Assembly (NCBI GenBank): GCA_027062325.1
Contig: JAMOTN010000035.1
Location: 1-39,514 of the forward strand
From: a bacterium
Lineage (GTDB): Bacteria > JAMOTN01
Length of the DNA: 39,514 bases
Reading direction: 5' to 3'
Shown: one piece after another, positions 25,396-38,439 of the stretch
Layout of the letters: every line of letters begins with the position of its first letter
Numbering within the stretch: position 1 is the first letter of the stretch
Notes under the pieces: model-generated
The model's input: only the letters and a program-made list of their open reading frames with translations
The model's database searches: none
Told to the model about the DNA's origin: nothing
Program-made: the position numbers and the translations under genes

Positions 25396-26679
25396 TTATG
25401 AAACTTTTATCTCCACAAATTCTTCGCCAACATTTTCAATAATTCCTTTGACGGGAGAGTGATAATTAACCCCGAGGTTATTGGGAGTATCAATTTTGGC
25501 AATCGGATCGTATTTTTCAACACTTTGGCCCTTCTGGACCAATACATTTGGTATTTTTCCAATGTGAGAATTTAAATATATGCGAAGCTTTATGCCGGAT
25601 GGAATGGAAATCTCTGTGTACTCAGGTACATTTGGAAGTTCAAAGTCGGCAAGGAGTCGAGATGCGGCGAATGATGATGCAACTCCTGTCCAATCTCTTT
25701 CGACTGCTTCAAGCTTATCTGGACGTCCAACTTTTCTCAACTCCTTTTTGAGTTCAAAATTTACGCGACTCGGTGATAGTCCAAGTGGACACACCAGAGT
25801 ACAAACGTTGCAATGACAGCAGTAAGAGGCTATCTTCAGCTCTTCTAGGGGAGCGTTGAAGGAGTACTTGCGCATTATGGAAGCAGGATCTATGGGATGT
25901 CCAAGCTGCCATCTTGGACATGCCAGGGTGCAATTGTTACAAGTTGCGCACGCAACGCGTGCTAGTTGCAGTATACTTTCTATACTTTGTGTCTTCATTT
26001 TGTAAATGAAAGAATCTTTTGGTGCGAAAATTAGAGCCGATGTGGTCTTTTTGGTAAATCCACTGGACTTCTCTCCCATTGCAGGACCACCATCTATGAC
26101 TAAGTCCGTGGGGAGATTGAGTTGAGAAGCAATTAATTCTATAGGTGTTCCAATAGGCAACTTTGAAATAAGAAGTTTCTTGGGAGCAATTATTGTGACG
26201 TATCTTTCGACAAAAGGCTTGTTATTACAGCAAGCTTGGTAAGCTAAATATGCTGTTGTCAAGTTTGTAACTACCACTCCAACGTCAATGGGCAATCCAC
26301 CTGCTGGTATTCGTTTGCCGGTTGCAAGAAAGGTTAAACACTGCTCATCTCCCACTGGATAACGATCAGGAAGTGTTGCAACCTTGGTGTTTAGATTTTT
26401 AACAAGGTGAATGTATTTGGATTTAATTGCAATTGTTACGGAGCGAAAGAGTTTTTTTAGCCAAGACATCACAGCTTTTAGTTCTTCGGAGTGTTTTTTT
26501 AAAAGCCATTTGTCAGATTGAAGAAACGGCTCGCATTCTGCTGCGTTTATAAGTAGATCCAGGTCAAAATTCCATTTGGCATAGGTTGGGAAACCTGCTC
26601 CTCCTGCTCCAACGATTCCATAATCTTTGAGACACGAAATAACAGCCCTTCTATCTATTCTACATCTTGAAGGCATCAC
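25396..26679 (-). CDS. pduS: PduS/RnfC-like flavin and Fe-S oxidoreductase
   Basis: GIVGAGGAGFPTYAKW (nucleotide-binding), INAAECEPFL, YPVGDEQCLTFLATGKRIPAGGLP, two 4Fe-4S motifs CATCNNCTLACP and CCHCNVCTLVCP, C-terminal SLBB/biotinyl-like hairpin. Confidence 0.85.
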   Translation of the reverse strand: MMPSRCRIDRRAVISCLKDYGIVGAGGAGFPTYAKWNFDLDLLINAAECEPFLQSDKWLLKKHSEELKAVMSWLKKLFRSVTIAIKSKYIHLVKNLNTKVATLPDRYPVGDEQCLTFLATGKRIPAGGLPIDVGVVVTNLTTAYLAYQACCNNKPFVERYVTIIAPKKLLISKLPIGTPIELIASQLNLPTDLVIDGGPAMGEKSSGFTKKTTSALIFAPKDSFIYKMKTQSIESILQLARVACATCNNCTLACPRWQLGHPIDPASIMRKYSFNAPLEELKIASYCCHCNVCTLVCPLGLSPSRVNFELKKELRKVGRPDKLEAVERDWTGVASSFAASRLLADFELPNVPEYTEISIPSGIKLRIYLNSHIGKIPNVLVQKGQSVEKYDPIAKIDTPNNLGVNYHSPVKGIIENVGEEFVEIKVS

Positions 26680-26722
26680 TATCCCCTCTTTTGTTTGAGT
26701 ATGTGGCTTTAATTGGATAAGA

Positions 26723-27265
26723 TCACCAGTTTCTGGAAAGAAGTGGTTTTGCTGGGCGGGGAATTACCACAGTTTTTAGTATATCTTGAGTAGTTGATTT
26801 AGCAGCTTCTACAGCGGCTTTGCAGTCTGCTACATCTCCTGTAACGACAAAGAAAGAGCGACCACCCAGCCCACGGGCGATGCGCAGGTCAAGAATTGTG
26901 ATGTTTGCAGCTTTAGCGGCGCTATCTGCTGCAAGGAATGCAGAGACTATGTTCATTGTTTCAACTACTCCTATTGCTTTTATTTCTGAGTTGTTTCCAT
27001 ATAGTGCAGTTTCAACTTGTGGGTGAATTCTTGGAATTATTGTGGTAGCTATTGTGTAATTTTTGGCAGTTTCTTCGGCACTTTCTATTGCAGCTTTCAC
27101 CTCTGCGACATCCCCGAAGACTACAAAAACAAATTTCCCAGCACATATGGGCTGACTGAATAGAATTTTAACGTTTGCTGCTTTGTAAGCTGAGTCAAGG
27201 GCTTCTATACCGGCTGCGATTGAGATGGTCTCCACTATGCCAATTGCTTTGGGAGATTCGGCCAT
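26723..27265 (-). CDS. pduT: PduT-like tandem-BMC-domain microcompartment shell protein
   Basis: Two BMC domains (AIGIVETISIAAGIEALDSAYKAANVKIL... and AIGVVETMNIVSAFLAADSAAKAANITIL...). SQPICAGKF aligns with the PduT Fe-S cysteine region; C-terminal VVIPRPAKPL. Confidence 0.88.
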   Translation of the reverse strand: MAESPKAIGIVETISIAAGIEALDSAYKAANVKILFSQPICAGKFVFVVFGDVAEVKAAIESAEETAKNYTIATTIIPRIHPQVETALYGNNSEIKAIGVVETMNIVSAFLAADSAAKAANITILDLRIARGLGGRSFFVVTGDVADCKAAVEAAKSTTQDILKTVVIPRPAKPLLSRNW

Positions 27266-28108
27266 TTACTCCACCTCTGTAGTATTTGAGTTTAGCTCAT
27301 TATAACATACAAAACTGCAGCAGTATGGGAATTCGCAAGTTGAGGCAATTTTAGTTGTAGGTTTGACTATGGCGCGTATTGGGAGTTCAACAACCTTTTC
27401 ATCAAATTTCCTTCGCCATTTAGCATAAGGTCGCATGCAGCCTATTATTACCGAAGTTTTTCCAAGTACCGATCTTGTTATTTCGAGTGCTTTTTCTACG
27501 GAAAGCGTTGGAATAAATCGCCCTGTATTGAAGTTGACAATAACAAATGGCAATTTGAGAGTGTTTAGTATGTTAAGTGCAGTTTCTAATTCGATGTCAG
27601 GATTAAAAAGTCCAAATGTGAAATGAAATGCGCAAAATGCCTTTAATTTTAATGATTTTGCCTTCTCCTCTACTAGTTTTTTTGATTTTTTGGCGAGGTA
27701 TATGATTGAATCCAGAGTTGGTTTGAAGTGGCCATTTGTGAGGAGAGACCATTCTTCTGAGAGTGGGAGGTCTATAGAGAAGCTCAAATTTGGTCTGAAT
27801 GTGGTTTGGGAAAGGGATGAGAAAAATTTTTCTATGTTTTGAAGCATGCGTTCTGTTAAAAAGCCGGGATGAACGTTTAGAAATTTGATCAGAGAGAGTT
27901 TTTCTGTTGGAAGTGATGAGATGGCTTTCCAGAATAATGTAAAGTCTACTGTTAGATCTTTATTTACGCCTCCTGTGACTAAAAGGCTTGATTCTGGTAT
28001 GAGATTTGATTGGCTGCCAAGATAGACACGTTTACAATGGCTACAATTTAAAAAACATGACGACGAGGTGTAGAAGTTTGTGTGTTTGTCAAGGCTTACA
28101 GTGATGAT
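27266..28108 (-). CDS. radical SAM protein, biotin synthase/COG2516-like, AUC start proposed
   Basis: Frame is open from 28114 to 27266. The proposed N-terminus, (M)ITVSLDKHTNFYTSSSCFLNCSHCKRVYLG...VTGGV, contains CxxxCxxC at 28034-28057. ORF track starts at ATG 27847 and omits it. C-terminal IIGCMRPYAKWRRKFDE and CEFPYCCSFVC. Confidence 0.78.
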   Translation of the reverse strand: MITVSLDKHTNFYTSSSCFLNCSHCKRVYLGSQSNLIPESSLLVTGGVNKDLTVDFTLFWKAISSLPTEKLSLIKFLNVHPGFLTERMLQNIEKFFSSLSQTTFRPNLSFSIDLPLSEEWSLLTNGHFKPTLDSIIYLAKKSKKLVEEKAKSLKLKAFCAFHFTFGLFNPDIELETALNILNTLKLPFVIVNFNTGRFIPTLSVEKALEITRSVLGKTSVIIGCMRPYAKWRRKFDEKVVELPIRAIVKPTTKIASTCEFPYCCSFVCYNELNSNTTEVE

Positions 28109-28147
28109 TTTAAATCACTCCTTTGCTAAAAATTGGTGCTTAAAGGT

Positions 28148-28450
28148 TTAAATTCCTAACTGTTCTTCTAACCACGATTTATATGTACCATGAAAACTGA
28201 CATTTATTGAGATGATAGCAGGTGTGGAATATGGGTGGTTAGCTTTTATGTACTCTATTATCTCCTCCGCCTTGGAGGTGTGTGTTTTTATAATACAGGC
28301 CCATTCTTTATCTTCGTTTATTTCACCCTGCCATTCGTATACGGAGTTTATTGGCCAGTAATTTACACATGCTGCCAGTCGATTTTCTACTAAGTGTTTG
28401 GCGGTTTGTTTTACACTTTCTTCATTGGGGAAGGTTGAGTAGATGAACAT
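28148..28450 (-). CDS. cutA: CutA1 divalent-cation tolerance protein family
   Basis: TFPNEESVKQTAKHLVENRLAACVNYWPINSVYEWQGEINEDKEWACIIKT...HPYSTPAIISI. Confidence 0.96.
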   Translation of the reverse strand: MFIYSTFPNEESVKQTAKHLVENRLAACVNYWPINSVYEWQGEINEDKEWACIIKTHTSKAEEIIEYIKANHPYSTPAIISINVSFHGTYKSWLEEQLGI

Positions 28451-28620: not shown

Positions 28621-31600
28621 TTGGGGAGGATGAGGGAGTTAGTGCTGAAAGCAGGCCTGCTTGTGAGAGTTGGGATTTTGTTTTTGCTTATTTTTAGTTT
28701 GGGAGTTTATGGTGCTGTTTCGCCGGATGCTACGTCATTTTGGATAACTGCTCAATCTTTGCCCGGGGGACAAATAAAGATTCAGTGGATGTCTCTTACT
28801 ACGGATAGTGAGCCTTTGGGGTACAGACTTTTTTCAGGAGATGGAACAACTTTTCATCAGATTGCAAATATTACAGATGGCTCCACCGTTTATGTTGATA
28901 CTCCAATAGTTAATAATGATGGAGATGTTGTTTATTACTATATTGTTCCTTACGATGCTGAAAACACTGGTGGATATGCTGAGTATGGTTATCCTTATCA
29001 CTACGCAACGGCAGCTTGTGAACTTCACGGTCCTAGGATTGTTGCGACTGTTGAAATCCCCATGCAAGCTGAGCATTGGAGGCCAATAATTACTACAGTT
29101 GAGATAGAGGTTGTTGACGATTGGAATGATACGAATTATCGATACGATGATTATCCAATTTCACTGGAGTACTCTTTTAATGGAAGTTTTAACACTACTT
29201 TTATGGTTGATACAGGAAATACTGGTAGCGCTGCTGGTGGAAAGATCGTTAGGGCTTACCTTGATATGAGAACACTTGGAAATGGTGATTCTGTGGCTAT
29301 TTGGTTCAACGGTGTTGATTACGTTGGGAATGAGATAGAGAGTCAACTGAATCCACCTCCAACATATCTTGTGGATGACAAATGTTACTTTATCATAGAT
29401 ACCGATTTTGCGGCGATTACTTCCGCTAAGTACTACGATGAAAACAACAATGGAATGGTTGATGCGGGAGATAGAGTTGTAATTTTGATGGATGAAGCAG
29501 TCACTCCTACGATTGCTAATCCGGCACCAGCTGATTGTTTTGAATTACTTCCTTCGGGAACAGCCACTTTTGGAACGGGCGCTTCTATGACTATTACGAC
29601 TGGGGATTCCTCCACTACTTTTGAAATAACTTTGGGAGCGGGAGCTGTTTTGAATGTCTCTGGAGTTTACGTTCCCGGATCAACTAATGGGCCGACGGGA
29701 ATAAATGTAAGGCCAGGAGCACCGCTTCAGGATTCTACAAAACCTGATCCCAATCCAGCTGCTCCTATGGCGACGGCGAAGGATATATCGACGGATGCAG
29801 AAGAGGGACCTTATGTGACCAAAGCTTATTTTGTGGATCTAGATTCGAATGGAGTTGATGCGGGAGATCAACTGTTTGTAGTTTTTAATCAGAACATTCA
29901 GGTGAATGGCTCGCTTGGTCCTACGGCTTTTGACTTACCAGTTTATGGAGATACCTTTCAAATAGACAGCTATTATGTTAATGGGCAAACATTGGAGATA
30001 ACGGTTGCCGAACCTGCGAATTTAAAGGTTGCGGGGACTTACAACATTGGAATGAATATTGAAGGAAGTCCTTCTGGAATAAGGGTTAGTCCATCGATGC
30101 CGGCAGGCTTGATTACCAATCTTTTGGGATATGATGCTCAAGCAAGTAATCCAGTTGATATTGATTCAACAGATAGTGTTGCAGCGTATCCGATATTTGC
30201 AAGATTTTTAGATGCGGCAGGTGATGGGCCTTCTAAAGGAGATACGGTTGAGATAGGTTTTAGTGAGGCTGTCTATCCGCAAGCTGGAGCTAATGTAGGA
30301 GATTTTCTGCTTCAGGGTTATGGAGGATACACTTTTGGAGCAGGAGCTTACGTTACGCAGCATCAAACTCAGACTCTGGAGATAGTTTTGGGAGATGAGC
30401 CGTTTCTCGCTTTTGCAAATTTGAATGTGGAGGATGGTGGAATCAATGCTGTGAATGCTCTTGCTGTGAATTTAACTACTACGGGTGGAGCAAATTATGA
30501 AGATCTTGCTGGAAATCAATCTCAGCCTGCAGCTGCTGATGTAAGTGTGGTTAGTGGAGATACTACGGCTCCTCAACTTATTTCGGCAGTATTCAGAGAT
30601 TTGGATGGGAATGGGCCCGATGCAGGTGATGTGGTAATTCTTACTTTTTCAGAGAGGATTGCCTTGACTACCACTGTTACAGCGCCCACAGCTGCAGATT
30701 TTAATGTAATTAATGGAAATCTTGGAGCAAATCCCACATTTGCACTTGGACAAACTACCATTGAAATAACTTTGGATGCGGGTACTGTAATAAATCTATT
30801 TGGGGCTAATACTACGGAGATTGGCTTGGTAACCCCAAATAGTATAAGAGATACAAGCGGTAATGAGGCTGTGGGTACAGTTTACATCGCAAGCGATGAT
30901 TTTACGGGACCAATTTTGCAAAGCGCAAGGTTTTTCGACAATGTTAATACTCCGGGGGTTGGAGCAGGTGACACAATTGAGCTAGTTTTTGATGAGCCTG
31001 TTACGTTTACAGACGGTATCGATCCTGCAACGGTGTTTTACTTGACGTCGGGATCTTCTTTTGGAACAGGAGCTCAAATGCATGCTTCAACTGCTGTGAA
31101 TGTTGTTGAGATTGTGCTGGGAGATGGTGCCTCCATTCAAGTTATGGGAATTGCAGGAACTGATCCCGGAGCGAGTGGGATAAATGTTTTACCTTCACAA
31201 ACAGCTCTTACTGATGTGGCTGGAAATAGAGCTCAAACTTTGGCAGATTGGATTGATGTAACAGCAGGAAGCCCGCATGGAGCTACTTTGGAGGCTGCCT
31301 ATTTTGAGGATCTAGATGGAAATGGTCCTGACGAGGGAGACAAACTTTACTTTGTGTTCAGTGAGAATGTCGAGGCATACACAGATTTGGCTCAAGTTGA
31401 TTCTGCGGATTTTCTGGTGCATCAGGGAAGTTTGGGAACCTCTCCTCAATTTTCTTTGAATGGAAATACGGTTGAGGTGACATTGGGGGTTGGAGCTTAT
31501 CTTAACAACATATTAGCAGATGGTATGATAAATCCTACTGCAGCTTCTGTTGAGATGGCAAATCCTAATGATATTTACAACTTTTTGGGAGAAATGGCGG

Positions 31601-34600
31601 TAGGTGCAACTGATGTTGTCTCAATTGATGATGAAGGGCCTTACGTGATTAGAGTTATTTACAGAGATACCCATAATCCTCTTGGTTTGAGTGAAAGTGA
31701 CGAGGTTTACATATATTTCAACGAATACGTTACGTATGCGGTTGATACAACTACGGGACGGGCCAATTTAACAGAGGCGGATTTTGTAATAGAACCAACT
31801 GGTGCTCCTTATACGTTTGGAGTGGGGGCACAATTTTGGCCTGAAGGTGATAGCGCTATTAAGGTTGTTTTGGGGGAGAATCCCTCACTTGAAGTTTATG
31901 GAGAATACAATTCAACGTGTACTGCAGCAGGTTGTCCTGCAGGAGTGCGTCTTAACGATGCTGGTTTGAATATTACTGATCTTTCAGGAAATCCCCCCGC
32001 TGCTACGGGTGCGGTTGATGTGACTGTAGAAGATGGAGTGAATCCGAAACTTTTGCACGCAATTTTTTACGATGAGAATGGAAATTACGCTGTTGATTCT
32101 GGGGATAAAATAAAGCTTGTATTTGATGAGGCTGTGAAGATAATAAATGATTCAGTGGTTGATAGTGATTTTGTTATTCCTGTTGCAAATGACACAATAG
32201 GAAGTGGTGCTCAATTTTCTGCTGATGCCTCCTCTGAAGAGGTTGTATGGCTGACATTAGGAGCAGGCTGTAGGTTCAGGATCGATGGAGTTTTTAATCC
32301 TTCCTCTACTGCTGCTGGCTATCCGAGTGGTTTAGATGTGAGTACAGATAAAATAAGAGACTATGCTGGAAATCCTGCTTATGGTGTTGGCGTTGTTGAT
32401 ATTGAACCTTCTGATACAACGTCTCCTGTATTGATTGGATGCCGTTTTATTGATACCGATATGAACGGAGTTGATGAGGGGGATCAGCTGGTTCTGATAT
32501 TTGATGAACCGATAGAGATTTCGGGACTTGTTATCACAGACTTTGAGCTTCCAGTTACTGGAGATAGTTTTGGAGCAGGAGCTACTGCTGTGGCTGGGGC
32601 AACTAGTAGGGAGATATTGATAACGTTGGGAACAGGAGCGCATTTAAATCCGGAAGGTTACTTTGATCCGACCAGGATTTATGAAGGAGCACCTTCTGGA
32701 ATTGGTGTATTGACAACGGACCACATTAAAGATAAGTGGGGAAATTCTGTGGTGTTCAATGGATATGTTGATGTTGATAGTGGGCAGGGACCTATTTTGT
32801 TAACTGCTACCTTTGAAGATAGAGTCAGTGATGGTTGGGTTGGAACTGGAGATGTGATAATTCTTACTTTCAACGAACCTGTTAAAATAAATGGTAATTT
32901 TGACTTTTCAGGGGTCCAATTGCCTGTAAGTGGAGATAGTTTGGGATTAGAGCCAACCATTGAGGTTGGGCCGGAAAGCAACCAGATCACGATAGTTTTA
33001 GGAACGAATCCTGTAGTTACTGTGATGGGAAGTTATGAAAAAGCCTTAACTAATGCGGGATCTCCATCTGGAATAAAAATTTTACCGACTAGTAATGTGT
33101 CGGATATGGTGGATCAGCTCTCTATTGGAAATATAGCAGATATTGCAGGAAATGATGGGACAAGTCCCCAGCTTGTTACTGTGGAAATAGAGGATTTAGA
33201 TGGTAATGGTGTGGATGAAGGAGATAAGCTTTATCTCATGTTCAATGAACCTGTTATACCTACTTTTATTCACTCTAGCTACCTTGTTCTCCCTGTAAGT
33301 GCAGATACTCTTGGAAGTGGTTTTACGTGGATGCAGGATCCCACAAGTTACAGTGTTGTAATAATAAGGCTTGGGAGCTTACCAAGATTAAATCCAGATG
33401 GTGTTTTTGATGCGGCGAATACTACTGCTGGATCTCCTTCAGGACTTGGAGTTGTTCCCAATCTTCCTTTGTTTACCATAAATGACATATATGGAAATCC
33501 CCCAGAAGGTGGAACAGTTATTGATATTGCTTGGTATCCGTCGCCGGAGGCGGAGTTGATTGGGGCAACTTACGAAGATGTAGATGGTAATGGACTTGAT
33601 TCAGGAGATAAGTTAATTTTGACTTTTACTAGGGCTGTTACGGTTGATGTAGCCATACTTCCATCAGATGCTGTGGTTCTGCCGGTTACAGATGATACAC
33701 TTGGAGATGGAGCTGCTTGGGAAAGCTACTTAGGTTATAAGGCAACAGTTGCAATAATTTTAGGGGACAACCCTACTTTAACTGTTATGGGAGAGTTTGA
33801 TCCTGCAGTGGTTACTCCTGGATCTCCTTCTGGAATAGGAATAGCTTTGTCAAATGCATTTACCGCTTACAATGGGGCACATGCAACTTCGCCTGTTTAT
33901 GTGGATGTTACAGCTCCGTTTGAAAAGGGACCTAGGTTGATGCAGGCTCTATATTACGATTTGGATTTGAATGGACCTAGCAATGGTGATTTGTTGGTGT
34001 TGAAGTTTGATCAGGATGTGCAAATACCGGCTTTGCCAGCTGATCCCAATCAGTTGGCTACTTTGCCTGTTGCGATGGATAGCTTTGGAACTGGAGCTTG
34101 GGCTACGTATGGAGTAAATGTTGATACAGGCGAAAGGATTACATCAGAGGTGGCAATAGTTTTGGGAACTGGAGCAAAGCTTAATTTAGAAGGGACTTAT
34201 AATCCTGCTAATGTTACCGATCCTACAGCTCCTTCTGGTGCCAAGGTGGAGACTGTTAATAGTTTGTTGAGAAACTTTTACGGTAAAGGAGTTGAAACTT
34301 CGGAGGTTGATATAGAAGATGGACTACCTACAACTCTTATTAGGGCTCTGTGGGAAGATAGAGGAGACGTTGGAGTTAGCAGCCAGGACAGACTTATTCT
34401 GCGATTTAATAGGCCTGTAAATTTTGTTGGGAATCCGGATTATCCTAGTTTATATTTGACTTACTTGAACTTAAATCCAGGAGCAGGGGCAAGACTAGAG
34501 CCTTACGATCCCGCTAATCCATCGCCTGCTACTCAGTTTGTGTTAGTGTTCGGTGATGGGGCTTCTGCAAATATTCCTCCTATATATCCTTCAGATCCTT

Positions 34601-37600
34601 CGGCGAGTGCAATAGCTTTAAGAGAGGGACAGGTTGGATTTGTGGATGCGGCAAATGGAATCTATGTTGAGACTTACGCTACAGTGGACATTGTTGCTTC
34701 TGATTCGGTGGCTTTAATACTGACGTTTGCAGGATTCGTAGATAGAAATGGTGTTGCAGGAGCTCAAGAAGGAGACCAAGTTATACTGACTTTTAATAAG
34801 GCGGTATATCTGAATGGAGCTGGAATTAATGACTTTGATATTAAGCAGAGTTCTGATAGCTTTGGAGCTGCAACGATTACTGGCGGACCGAATGCAAATC
34901 AGTTGACGATAACATTGGGAGCTGGAGTAAGTATAGAAGTTGGTGTCACAGCTGTTGATGTATCCTCAGATGTTACTACAAATGGTCACATTAAAGATTA
35001 TGCTGGAAATAATGCAGTTCCCTCTGGTTATAAAGTTATAACTGATGCTGTTGGTCCTTACATAGTGAGAGCTATATATAATGATCCAGATGGAAATGGT
35101 GTAGGTGCAGGAGATACTTTAGAGATAGTGTTTTCTGAGGCTATTACAGCGACAGGTTTGAGCTCAAGCGATTTTATACTACCCGTTGCGGGAGATAGTC
35201 TTGGCTCTTCTCCAACTTTTAGTCAACCTGCTCCTGATAGACTTATAATAACTCTTGGTTTGGGAGCACATTTGACTGTTAAAGGGGTTTACTCGAATTT
35301 GAATCTTGGGCGTAGCAATCCGTCAGGTATAAAGTTGAATCCTGCAGGTGTTATAAGAGATGTTGCGGGAAATGCTCCGGTTGCAACAGGTGCAGTTGAC
35401 ATAGAGGGAGCTCCACCTGCGCTGCTTCTTCAATATGTGCATTTTGTTGATAAATTTTCAAACGGTGTTACACCGGGAGATGAGTTGATACTTGGTTTCA
35501 ATAAGCGCGTAATTCTTGACAGGGAGAATGTTTCAATTTCAGACTTTGTTATAGGGGGCGGAAATTTTGGAACTGGAGCAAGGGTTTTGCCGGGAGCAGA
35601 GAGCAATGAGGTAATAATACTGCTTGGGGAAAACGCAACTATTGAGAGCATAGCAGATCCTGCTGGTTCGTGGGTGGGAGTTGCGACTTCAGTTTTGACG
35701 AATTATCATCTTTACGATACAAACGGTAATCCTGCTCAGCCGGCAACTCGCGATATAGAGGTTATTGGAGATGCAGTTTCGCCACAGTTAATTGGGGCAA
35801 CTTATTACGATACCGCTGTTCCTTATGGTAGTGTGAATCAGGGAGATACACTTATCTTAACGTTTTCTGAGCCGGTTGAGATAAGAGCTCCTGTTGATAC
35901 TGCTCAGTTTTTCTTAGCGGTTACTGGAGACAGTCTTGGAGGAACAGGCTTTTCAGTAAGCCATGCGACAAAGGCTAATCAGATAGAGGTGACATTGGGA
36001 AGTGGATGTGCGCTTACTCCGGCTGGGACTTATGATACCACGACTCCTCCGCCGCAGCCTGCGGGGGCTCCATCGGGGATAAATCTTGCGATGCCTCTTA
36101 CATCTATTACAGATTATGCAGGAAACAGTGCTGTGCCCGCTGTCAATCCTGTTGACATTACAATGCTTGATGTTACTCCGCCGCACATTCTCTCAATGCG
36201 TGTTGTAAACTCTGATGGCAAGGAAAATGTTGTGAAGCCCAATGGTGATACTATTTCTTTTACTGTGCAGACAGATGATACCACTTTATCAACAGCAAGT
36301 TTTGTGGCTGACTTTTCACAGATTGGAGGTCCTGCGGCTTCGCATCCGGATACTTGCAATGCGGGAACTGCTACATGGAATAACATAAATACAGGGGCAC
36401 TCACTACAGCTACTGCTCCGATTATTGTTCGAGTAACGGATATGGCAGGGAATACTGCAACTGCTACCTTTACAGTTAATGTTATAAAAGCAGCATATTA
36501 TGTTAAGGGAGAAATTACCCCATCTTATGTGCCGCGCAACAGGAATGTTACGGTGGAGCTGAAATTGCGCCCACGCTTTGTTGATGAGAGTTATGGTATA
36601 GATTTGGTAAATGTACAACTGCCAAATGGTTATTCATGTTCTGATGTTACAAAGATAAGGGTTACAACTTATCAAGGAGAATGGACTGTCAAGACTTCAA
36701 TGCCTCTTGATTCAAATCAATATGAGGTGTTGATAAATACAGCAGGTAACATGATACAGTTTGTATTCTCTCAAGCTTTGAAGTGGCAGAATACTGATCA
36801 GTACACTATAAATTTTGAGATGCCGGTTCATACTAAGTATAATCCTGATATGCCTGATGGAACGCCTGTTGTTGTTAGTGTTGACAATACCGCTTTGAAT
36901 TCGGCTCTAAATGTAGAAGAAGAGTTCCCGGGTTCTCTTATATTACACACCGAGGGATTGGAGGTTAAGAAAGTATTGGCAAATAGTGTTATAGAGAGTA
37001 CGGGGTGGCGAATTTACTTTACTATTTTATTCAATATGATTCCTAACTTATCAAATTTACCAACTGTTCGAGTAAAATTGCAGAATGGAGTTGAGTTTAA
37101 ATTAAGAACTATTCAGTTTGCTGAGAAAACTTACAGTGGAAGTGTCTTTATTCCATTCTCTTATGCAGAAGGAGCTTCAACTTTTGAGTTGTGGATTGAG
37201 GGAGCGACTGAGCCTGATGGTTATCCAATGGCAAATTATGGGAGGGAGTTTAAACTTCCAGCAAGAGTTGTATCCATTATAGTTCCAGTTTATTCAGCAC
37301 CAAAGGAGTATTACCTGTATCTAAAATCTCCAGATGGAGTGCCTCAAGTTACGATGAGAACGCCTGCTTCTACATCTGTAGAACTCAATGTAAAAAATGT
37401 TGTATCTGATGTTTACCGAGCTTTGTTTGAAGTGGCAGAGACAGGACTTTACAGATTCAAAATCGTTGTTGGTACTCAAGAAATTTACGCTAACAACTAT
37501 CTTGTGTGCACAGGTGCAATAAGGGGTGGAAGCTCTAAATATGTGCCGGTGAGTGGCTTGGAATTGAATTTTAATGGAGTGTCATATCCTATTACAAATT

Positions 37601-38439
37601 TGAAGTTTAATGCTGTGGATAGTAAGCTTTTGCCTACAAGAGTTGAGGTTTGTGAAGATAGACTAGGAGATAGCAGGATTACCGAATTTTGGCACGTGAG
37701 TGGAGAGGTGAACTTGGTAGCCGATCAGAAATTTGGATTATGTGTGGCTTCGGGTGAAAGTTTGTTTTGGATGGGAAAGCACGTTAGTGGTGAAGGGGAT
37801 GTGGCAGTTGCGCTGGATGAGAAGGCACCACATGTTGAAGTTGAGAATTTTGAGGATAAGTTGGTTGTTCGAGTAGGGGATGATGTATCCGGAGTTGATG
37901 TGGTGAGGCTTACGGTAGGTAATAGTGAGTTTAGTAAAGAATTGAATGATGTTGAGCGATGGAGAACTGTTTTTCATATGGATACTCGTTCAGAACGAAC
38001 GAATGATACTTTGTTGGTTTCAGATGTTGGGGAGTTTTCTTTTGATGGGATGCTTCCCGGTTACTATGATGTAAAGTGGCAGGTTTGTGATGCTGCCGGA
38101 AATTGTAGTGTTGGTGTAAAGAGTATTTTGTGGCGTGGAGTGGATGATGCGAAAGTAATTTGTTATCCCAATCCTGTGACCTCTGATTATTTAAAGATAA
38201 AGTTGACAAGGTATGGATTGGATATAGAAAAAGCGAAAGTTGTGATTTATGATGCAGCAGGTGAGAAGGTTTGGAGCACTGAGGTTCAGTTTTACAACAA
38301 TGAAGAGGTTGTTGAGTGGAGGTTAGAAAGTCTTTGGGGATCAAAGGTGAAAAGAGGGGTTTACGTAGTTAAGGCTAAATTTTATTCAAGTACTGGGAAA
38401 GTGTTGACGCGTTACTTTAAGGTGTTTGTAGCAAGATGA
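28621..38439 (+). CDS. giant secreted or surface repeat protein (about 3272 aa) with about 18 degenerate repeats
   Basis: N-terminal signal-like helix (LLVRVGILFLLIFSLGVYG), FnIII-like region, tandem ~115-135 aa repeats, C-terminal CYPNP... domain. Start uncertain: TTG 28621, ATG 28630, or GTG 28642. Confidence 0.93.
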   Translation: MGRMRELVLKAGLLVRVGILFLLIFSLGVYGAVSPDATSFWITAQSLPGGQIKIQWMSLTTDSEPLGYRLFSGDGTTFHQIANITDGSTVYVDTPIVNNDGDVVYYYIVPYDAENTGGYAEYGYPYHYATAACELHGPRIVATVEIPMQAEHWRPIITTVEIEVVDDWNDTNYRYDDYPISLEYSFNGSFNTTFMVDTGNTGSAAGGKIVRAYLDMRTLGNGDSVAIWFNGVDYVGNEIESQLNPPPTYLVDDKCYFIIDTDFAAITSAKYYDENNNGMVDAGDRVVILMDEAVTPTIANPAPADCFELLPSGTATFGTGASMTITTGDSSTTFEITLGAGAVLNVSGVYVPGSTNGPTGINVRPGAPLQDSTKPDPNPAAPMATAKDISTDAEEGPYVTKAYFVDLDSNGVDAGDQLFVVFNQNIQVNGSLGPTAFDLPVYGDTFQIDSYYVNGQTLEITVAEPANLKVAGTYNIGMNIEGSPSGIRVSPSMPAGLITNLLGYDAQASNPVDIDSTDSVAAYPIFARFLDAAGDGPSKGDTVEIGFSEAVYPQAGANVGDFLLQGYGGYTFGAGAYVTQHQTQTLEIVLGDEPFLAFANLNVEDGGINAVNALAVNLTTTGGANYEDLAGNQSQPAAADVSVVSGDTTAPQLISAVFRDLDGNGPDAGDVVILTFSERIALTTTVTAPTAADFNVINGNLGANPTFALGQTTIEITLDAGTVINLFGANTTEIGLVTPNSIRDTSGNEAVGTVYIASDDFTGPILQSARFFDNVNTPGVGAGDTIELVFDEPVTFTDGIDPATVFYLTSGSSFGTGAQMHASTAVNVVEIVLGDGASIQVMGIAGTDPGASGINVLPSQTALTDVAGNRAQTLADWIDVTAGSPHGATLEAAYFEDLDGNGPDEGDKLYFVFSENVEAYTDLAQVDSADFLVHQGSLGTSPQFSLNGNTVEVTLGVGAYLNNILADGMINPTAASVEMANPNDIYNFLGEMAVGATDVVSIDDEGPYVIRVIYRDTHNPLGLSESDEVYIYFNEYVTYAVDTTTGRANLTEADFVIEPTGAPYTFGVGAQFWPEGDSAIKVVLGENPSLEVYGEYNSTCTAAGCPAGVRLNDAGLNITDLSGNPPAATGAVDVTVEDGVNPKLLHAIFYDENGNYAVDSGDKIKLVFDEAVKIINDSVVDSDFVIPVANDTIGSGAQFSADASSEEVVWLTLGAGCRFRIDGVFNPSSTAAGYPSGLDVSTDKIRDYAGNPAYGVGVVDIEPSDTTSPVLIGCRFIDTDMNGVDEGDQLVLIFDEPIEISGLVITDFELPVTGDSFGAGATAVAGATSREILITLGTGAHLNPEGYFDPTRIYEGAPSGIGVLTTDHIKDKWGNSVVFNGYVDVDSGQGPILLTATFEDRVSDGWVGTGDVIILTFNEPVKINGNFDFSGVQLPVSGDSLGLEPTIEVGPESNQITIVLGTNPVVTVMGSYEKALTNAGSPSGIKILPTSNVSDMVDQLSIGNIADIAGNDGTSPQLVTVEIEDLDGNGVDEGDKLYLMFNEPVIPTFIHSSYLVLPVSADTLGSGFTWMQDPTSYSVVIIRLGSLPRLNPDGVFDAANTTAGSPSGLGVVPNLPLFTINDIYGNPPEGGTVIDIAWYPSPEAELIGATYEDVDGNGLDSGDKLILTFTRAVTVDVAILPSDAVVLPVTDDTLGDGAAWESYLGYKATVAIILGDNPTLTVMGEFDPAVVTPGSPSGIGIALSNAFTAYNGAHATSPVYVDVTAPFEKGPRLMQALYYDLDLNGPSNGDLLVLKFDQDVQIPALPADPNQLATLPVAMDSFGTGAWATYGVNVDTGERITSEVAIVLGTGAKLNLEGTYNPANVTDPTAPSGAKVETVNSLLRNFYGKGVETSEVDIEDGLPTTLIRALWEDRGDVGVSSQDRLILRFNRPVNFVGNPDYPSLYLTYLNLNPGAGARLEPYDPANPSPATQFVLVFGDGASANIPPIYPSDPSASAIALREGQVGFVDAANGIYVETYATVDIVASDSVALILTFAGFVDRNGVAGAQEGDQVILTFNKAVYLNGAGINDFDIKQSSDSFGAATITGGPNANQLTITLGAGVSIEVGVTAVDVSSDVTTNGHIKDYAGNNAVPSGYKVITDAVGPYIVRAIYNDPDGNGVGAGDTLEIVFSEAITATGLSSSDFILPVAGDSLGSSPTFSQPAPDRLIITLGLGAHLTVKGVYSNLNLGRSNPSGIKLNPAGVIRDVAGNAPVATGAVDIEGAPPALLLQYVHFVDKFSNGVTPGDELILGFNKRVILDRENVSISDFVIGGGNFGTGARVLPGAESNEVIILLGENATIESIADPAGSWVGVATSVLTNYHLYDTNGNPAQPATRDIEVIGDAVSPQLIGATYYDTAVPYGSVNQGDTLILTFSEPVEIRAPVDTAQFFLAVTGDSLGGTGFSVSHATKANQIEVTLGSGCALTPAGTYDTTTPPPQPAGAPSGINLAMPLTSITDYAGNSAVPAVNPVDITMLDVTPPHILSMRVVNSDGKENVVKPNGDTISFTVQTDDTTLSTASFVADFSQIGGPAASHPDTCNAGTATWNNINTGALTTATAPIIVRVTDMAGNTATATFTVNVIKAAYYVKGEITPSYVPRNRNVTVELKLRPRFVDESYGIDLVNVQLPNGYSCSDVTKIRVTTYQGEWTVKTSMPLDSNQYEVLINTAGNMIQFVFSQALKWQNTDQYTINFEMPVHTKYNPDMPDGTPVVVSVDNTALNSALNVEEEFPGSLILHTEGLEVKKVLANSVIESTGWRIYFTILFNMIPNLSNLPTVRVKLQNGVEFKLRTIQFAEKTYSGSVFIPFSYAEGASTFELWIEGATEPDGYPMANYGREFKLPARVVSIIVPVYSAPKEYYLYLKSPDGVPQVTMRTPASTSVELNVKNVVSDVYRALFEVAETGLYRFKIVVGTQEIYANNYLVCTGAIRGGSSKYVPVSGLELNFNGVSYPITNLKFNAVDSKLLPTRVEVCEDRLGDSRITEFWHVSGEVNLVADQKFGLCVASGESLFWMGKHVSGEGDVAVALDEKAPHVEVENFEDKLVVRVGDDVSGVDVVRLTVGNSEFSKELNDVERWRTVFHMDTRSERTNDTLLVSDVGEFSFDGMLPGYYDVKWQVCDAAGNCSVGVKSILWRGVDDAKVICYPNPVTSDYLKIKLTRYGLDIEKAKVVIYDAAGEKVWSTEVQFYNNEEVVEWRLESLWGSKVKRGVYVVKAKFYSSTGKVLTRYFKVFVAR
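29401..36171 (+). repeat. array of about 18 degenerate protein-coding tandem repeats
   Basis: Recurring pattern: [G/S]P.L..A.Y.DLDGNGVD.GD.L.L.F.E.V ... LPV.GDSLG.GA ... I.LG.GA.L...G.Y.P....GSPSGI.V ... I.D.AGN.A.....VDI. Confidence 0.9.

Follow-up and report, generated by a model that had tools for sequence, protein, structure and literature searches.

A divergent LipS1-type lipoyl synthase gene with a probable AUC start codon

The window analyzed here, the 39,514-nucleotide contig JAMOTN010000035.1 from a bacterial metagenome assembly, carries a minus-strand gene for a LipS1-type lipoyl synthase subunit whose catalytic radical-SAM motif is encoded upstream of the first ATG. We consider it probable that the AUC codon at positions 28106-28108 is genuinely used as the start of an intact gene. 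The simplest reading of the sequence is that this gene is predicted to supply the working LipS1 of the genome. Specifically, the Shine-Dalgarno (SD) sequence AAAGGAG would position ribosomes at this AUC, where the ordinary initiator tRNA would initiate to yield a 280-residue protein with methionine as its first residue, presumably at a lowered efficiency and under discrimination by initiation factor IF3. Together with LipS2, the protein would then add sulfur to octanoyl-lysine, by analogy with the LipS1-LipS2 pair of T. kodakarensis.

Table 1. Features of the lipS1 region, in window coordinates
Feature	Positions	Strand	Basis
Shine-Dalgarno AAAGGAG, 9 nt 5′ of ATC	28118..28124	-	Survey of GGAG-to-start gaps
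In-frame stop TGA, upstream bound of the frame	28115..28117	-	Sequence, translation
Proposed AUC start	28106..28108	-	Sole in-frame near-cognate codon with SD at the modal gap
LipS1-type lipoyl synthase subunit, 280 codons plus stop	27266..28108	-	NCBIfam LipS1 (72.8 bits), alignments
Radical-SAM CxxxCxxC (C18, C22, C25)	28034..28057	-	Invariant in 20 aligned sequences
GG motif (G46, G47)	27968..27973	-	Invariant in the alignment of 20
ATG, first canonical start of the called ORF, without SD	27845..27847	-	Start/SD screen
CutA, upstream neighbor, 39 nt from lipS1	28148..28450	-	Pfam PF03091
Tandem-BMC shell protein, PduT-like	26723..27265	-	PF00936 twice, TIGR02526 (125.6 bits)
RnfC/PduS-like electron-transfer protein	25396..26679	-	Profile matches

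A coding segment upstream of the first ATG

The first-pass annotation correctly stated that the called open reading frame (27266-27847) lacks a radical-SAM motif, and that its frame stays open upstream for 89 codons, through a CxxxCxxC and a following GGV, to a TGA; its coordinates are exact. The frame is uninterrupted, in both sequence and translation, between the TGA at 28115-28117 and the TAA at 27266-27268. After the TGA, it reads TTT AAA ATC (28106-28108) ATC (28103-28105) ACT GTA and continues through TSSSCFLNCSHCKRVYLG and, later, TGGV. Up to the ATG at 27847 the frame comprises 89 codons counted from the TGA and 87 from the first ATC, and with numbering from that ATC the CxxxCxxC occupies residues 18-25. 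Sequence and translation also bear out the claim that no ATG, GTG, TTG or CTG stands in frame between the TGA and this motif.

Codon usage and conserved positions demonstrate that the segment upstream of the first ATG is coding. A codon model trained on lagging-strand-type genes of the same genome gives 0.119 per codon for the segment (28108-27848) and 0.125 for the gene body; the segment's value is reached by 0.5% of wrong-frame windows. When one whole-genome codon model was used, both the segment and the gene body were scored as non-coding because of strong strand asymmetry, and this result disappeared under the lagging-strand model. Codon usage in a sample of the genome is bimodal by strand, with a third-position GC skew of about +0.5 for most genes and about -0.3 for the rest, and genes of the minority strand class are misjudged if only one codon model is applied (window positions 25396-28450, for example).

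Identity of the protein and its partners

On the evidence of its conserved residues, we identify the predicted product, which the first-pass annotation described simply as radical-SAM, as a divergent form of LipS1. In the two-part lipoyl synthase, LipS1 is the second radical-SAM subunit. A Pfam search with the product returned no match. NCBIfam LipS1 (NF053742) matches it at 72.8 bits in two stretches, one N-terminal and one C-terminal, that cover profile positions 13-106 and 199-255. This score falls below the curated equivalog cut-off of 230 bits that serves as the annotation threshold, and we therefore file the protein as LipS1-type and divergent rather than as a confirmed equivalog. Its identity is 25-33% to good LipS1 proteins of three other genomes and 23-30% to 19 further LipS1 proteins from GTDB genomes.

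The protein retains all 18 positions that are invariant in a 20-sequence LipS1-type alignment, and 10 of these precede the first ATG. Homologues that start after 27847 and lack the cysteine motif did not occur in this alignment. Given that the homologues cover the upstream segment and that the segment is coding, the proposal that the gene reaches upstream through the radical-SAM motif holds. The CxxxCxxC required of a LipS1 is supplied by C18, C22 and C25, whereas C224, C263, C264 and H162 fall in invariant columns and match C230, C276, C277 and H159 of the T. kodakarensis enzyme. Experiments with that protein identified the three cysteines as auxiliary-cluster ligands and found H159 to be required as well (PMC9585515). 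Thus, the two proteins share a CxxxCxxC near the N-terminus, a late single cysteine, a C-terminal CC pair and a conserved histidine (PMC9585515), but the one described here has a divergent sequence and an AUC start. Several near-invariant positions are changed, with T-G before the first cysteine replaced by T-S, SGG by TGG, and PH by FH, which is a further reason to call the protein LipS1-type and divergent. The predicted structure (pLDDT 77) gives weak matches to TIM-barrel proteins, of which HydE is the best and biotin synthase is another.

As with the T. kodakarensis pair, a LipS2 gene is encoded elsewhere in the genome (C62:5544-6329 / L078:1414-2433), where it scores 197.6 bits, below its cut-off of 270. 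The lipS1 and LipS2 genes lie on separate contigs, whereas they are neighbors in many genomes. Also present are GcvH (171.5 bits), adjoining GcvT and GcvP, and an LplA-like ligase. Profile searches of the genome revealed no second LipS1-like gene. LipA was likewise not found in the genome, but may exist unseen because the assembly is 84% complete.

The start site and competing readings

The lack of canonical starts is by itself unremarkable: given the codon frequencies of this strand, the chance of meeting none is about 0.53 over 17 codons and about 0.07 over 86. What is beyond chance is the combination of a coding segment with a seven-base SD (AAAGGAG) 9 nt before the AUC. A match of at least seven bases to the SD precedes approximately 0.9% of random in-gene positions, and the modal distance from GGAG to the start codon, 8-9 nt, occurs in 93 of the 205 unambiguous genes of the genome. 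The gap is 9 nt for the first ATC and 12 nt for the second. The first-pass proposal of AUC 28106-28108 at good spacing is therefore upheld, this codon being the only one in frame with a near-optimal SD. Seventeen residues separate the start from the first cysteine, compared with 20-25 in short-form LipS1 homologues, a shortfall that counts against the AUC start. A regulatory hairpin across the start is not evident, since the predicted fold is no better than those of shuffled sequences (z = -0.65). No tRNA-Met of any sort, including an altered initiator tRNA, was seen in the approximately 69% of the genome sampled.

A screen of 959 automatic gene calls, spanning 1.14 of 1.65 Mb, ranked lipS1 first for a coding, unoccupied extension that lacks a canonical start. 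Antisense shadows were removed from this screen, which is useless otherwise. Across the genome, AUC, AUU and AUA are not in excess behind SD sequences, which counts against the AUC reading and indicates that non-canonical initiation is not a genome-wide habit. Only one other case with an SD is comparable. A HEAT/TPR-like gene (L104:8199-9605, minus strand; G000:C42) carries 36 coding-like codons above its first TTG, with an in-frame ATT 12 nt after AAGGAG; alternatively, that gene starts at GTG and an A6 run in it contains a one-base indel.

The main rival is a faulty consensus: either the true codon at 28106-28108 is ATG or the assembly overlooked a small indel, and the gene would then be ordinary. 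One base parts ATC from ATG, which counts against the AUC reading. The distance from the SD matches that of a conventional start exactly, and where the 5′ end of a LipS1-type locus is complete, the N-terminal segment is encoded 3′ of a canonical start. The source is a metagenome assembly and the sole member of its phylum among the genomes compared. No close orthologue was found in its phylum, 59 other genomes, or genome or viral contigs, and the nearest relatives belong to other phyla. Nonetheless, substitutions in short-read consensus sequences are rare, the surrounding sequence is clean and the 280-codon frame is unbroken. If the T run upstream had an indel, a GTG would enter the frame; this codon, however, overlaps the SD, a spacing that is unusable in this genome. 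On balance, we regard a consensus error as unlikely.

A second possibility is that the ATC is real and marks a recently lost start or an incipient pseudogene, with negligible translation or with the loss confined to this strain. The divergence of the protein (23-33% identity, 72.8 bits) makes relaxed selection possible, and the altered near-invariant positions and the weak profile match point the same way. Yet the 280 codons contain no stop or frameshift and retain every radical-SAM and auxiliary-cluster ligand, and the genome encodes LipS2 and lipoyl-acceptor proteins while no LipA or other LipS1 was found in it. We consider such a loss quite improbable. Finally, we judge it very improbable that ribosomes initiate in a different frame and slip into this one, or that they make only the 193-residue protein that begins at ATG 27847. 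Nothing specific favors these routes beyond an out-of-frame GTG 10 nt 5′ of the ATC. All other-frame starts between 42 nt before the ATC and about 55 nt after it are dead ends after 1-14 codons, and the form begun at the SD-less ATG would lose 10 of the 18 invariant positions. The relative weights given to AUC initiation and to these three rivals are judgements and were not calculated.

Genomic setting, precedents and meaning

Unlike its T. kodakarensis counterpart, lipS1 is not linked to lipoate genes, but lies between cutA and genes for PduT- and PduS-like microcompartment proteins. The ATG of the PduT-like gene comes directly after the lipS1 stop. BMC, PduS or CutA genes adjoin none of the other LipS1 genes at 32 loci, and we found no report among open-licence papers that ties a lipoyl synthase to microcompartments. 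The genome has two microcompartment loci: the PduT/PduS-like pair beside lipS1 (25396-27265), and PduA-, PduN- and PduP-like genes at L102:8934-11218 (contig C76). Divergent from the cutA-lipS1 operon, an open frame of 3272 codons with a TTG start (window positions 28621-38439) encodes a large surface-type protein of repetitive sequence, containing many repeat units that resemble one another.

Initiation at AUC or AUU behind an SD is familiar from infC, the gene for IF3, whose start codon is AUU in E. coli, whereas Streptomyces uses ATC (PMC5472188). There the odd start serves autoregulation of IF3, whereas here the AUC belongs to the gene of a biosynthetic enzyme and the infC of the same genome starts with ATG. 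The earlier remark that such starts can be autoregulated by IF3 thus concerns infC, and IF3 control of lipS1 is conjecture. The Streptomyces sigR gene offers a second precedent for a non-canonical start outside infC that was overlooked by annotation (PMC5472188). Its start is GUC rather than AUC; the GTC codon was proved by mutation and with IF3 variants and is conserved in the genus. Repression by IF3 has been shown for these infC and sigR starts (PMC5472188). In vitro, IF3 disfavors pairing between codon and anticodon when the third base is weak or mismatched (PMC10158994), which counts against the AUC reading. One might also imagine that the AUC is real and under selection, such that LipS1, and perhaps the PduT-like protein through the stop/start junction, would be sensitive to IF3, and both lipoylation and an operon for microcompartment electron transfer would be coupled to the condition of the translation machinery, but we consider this improbable.

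We found no earlier report, among open-licence papers, of a LipS1-type enzyme with an AUC start. Regardless, both the enzyme family and the start type are already known, and with the precedents of infC and sigR the novelty is modest. The combination of class-specific codon usage, an SD at the modal gap and the absence of a canonical start constitutes a simple computational screen. Gene callers limited to ATG, GTG and TTG would cut this enzyme to a fragment that lacks the catalytic motif, and the lipoyl synthase pathway would therefore seem incomplete in this lineage. If the AUC start is confirmed, a biosynthetic enzyme would join the few bacterial genes with AUC, AUU or GUC starts, which mostly concern IF3 control.
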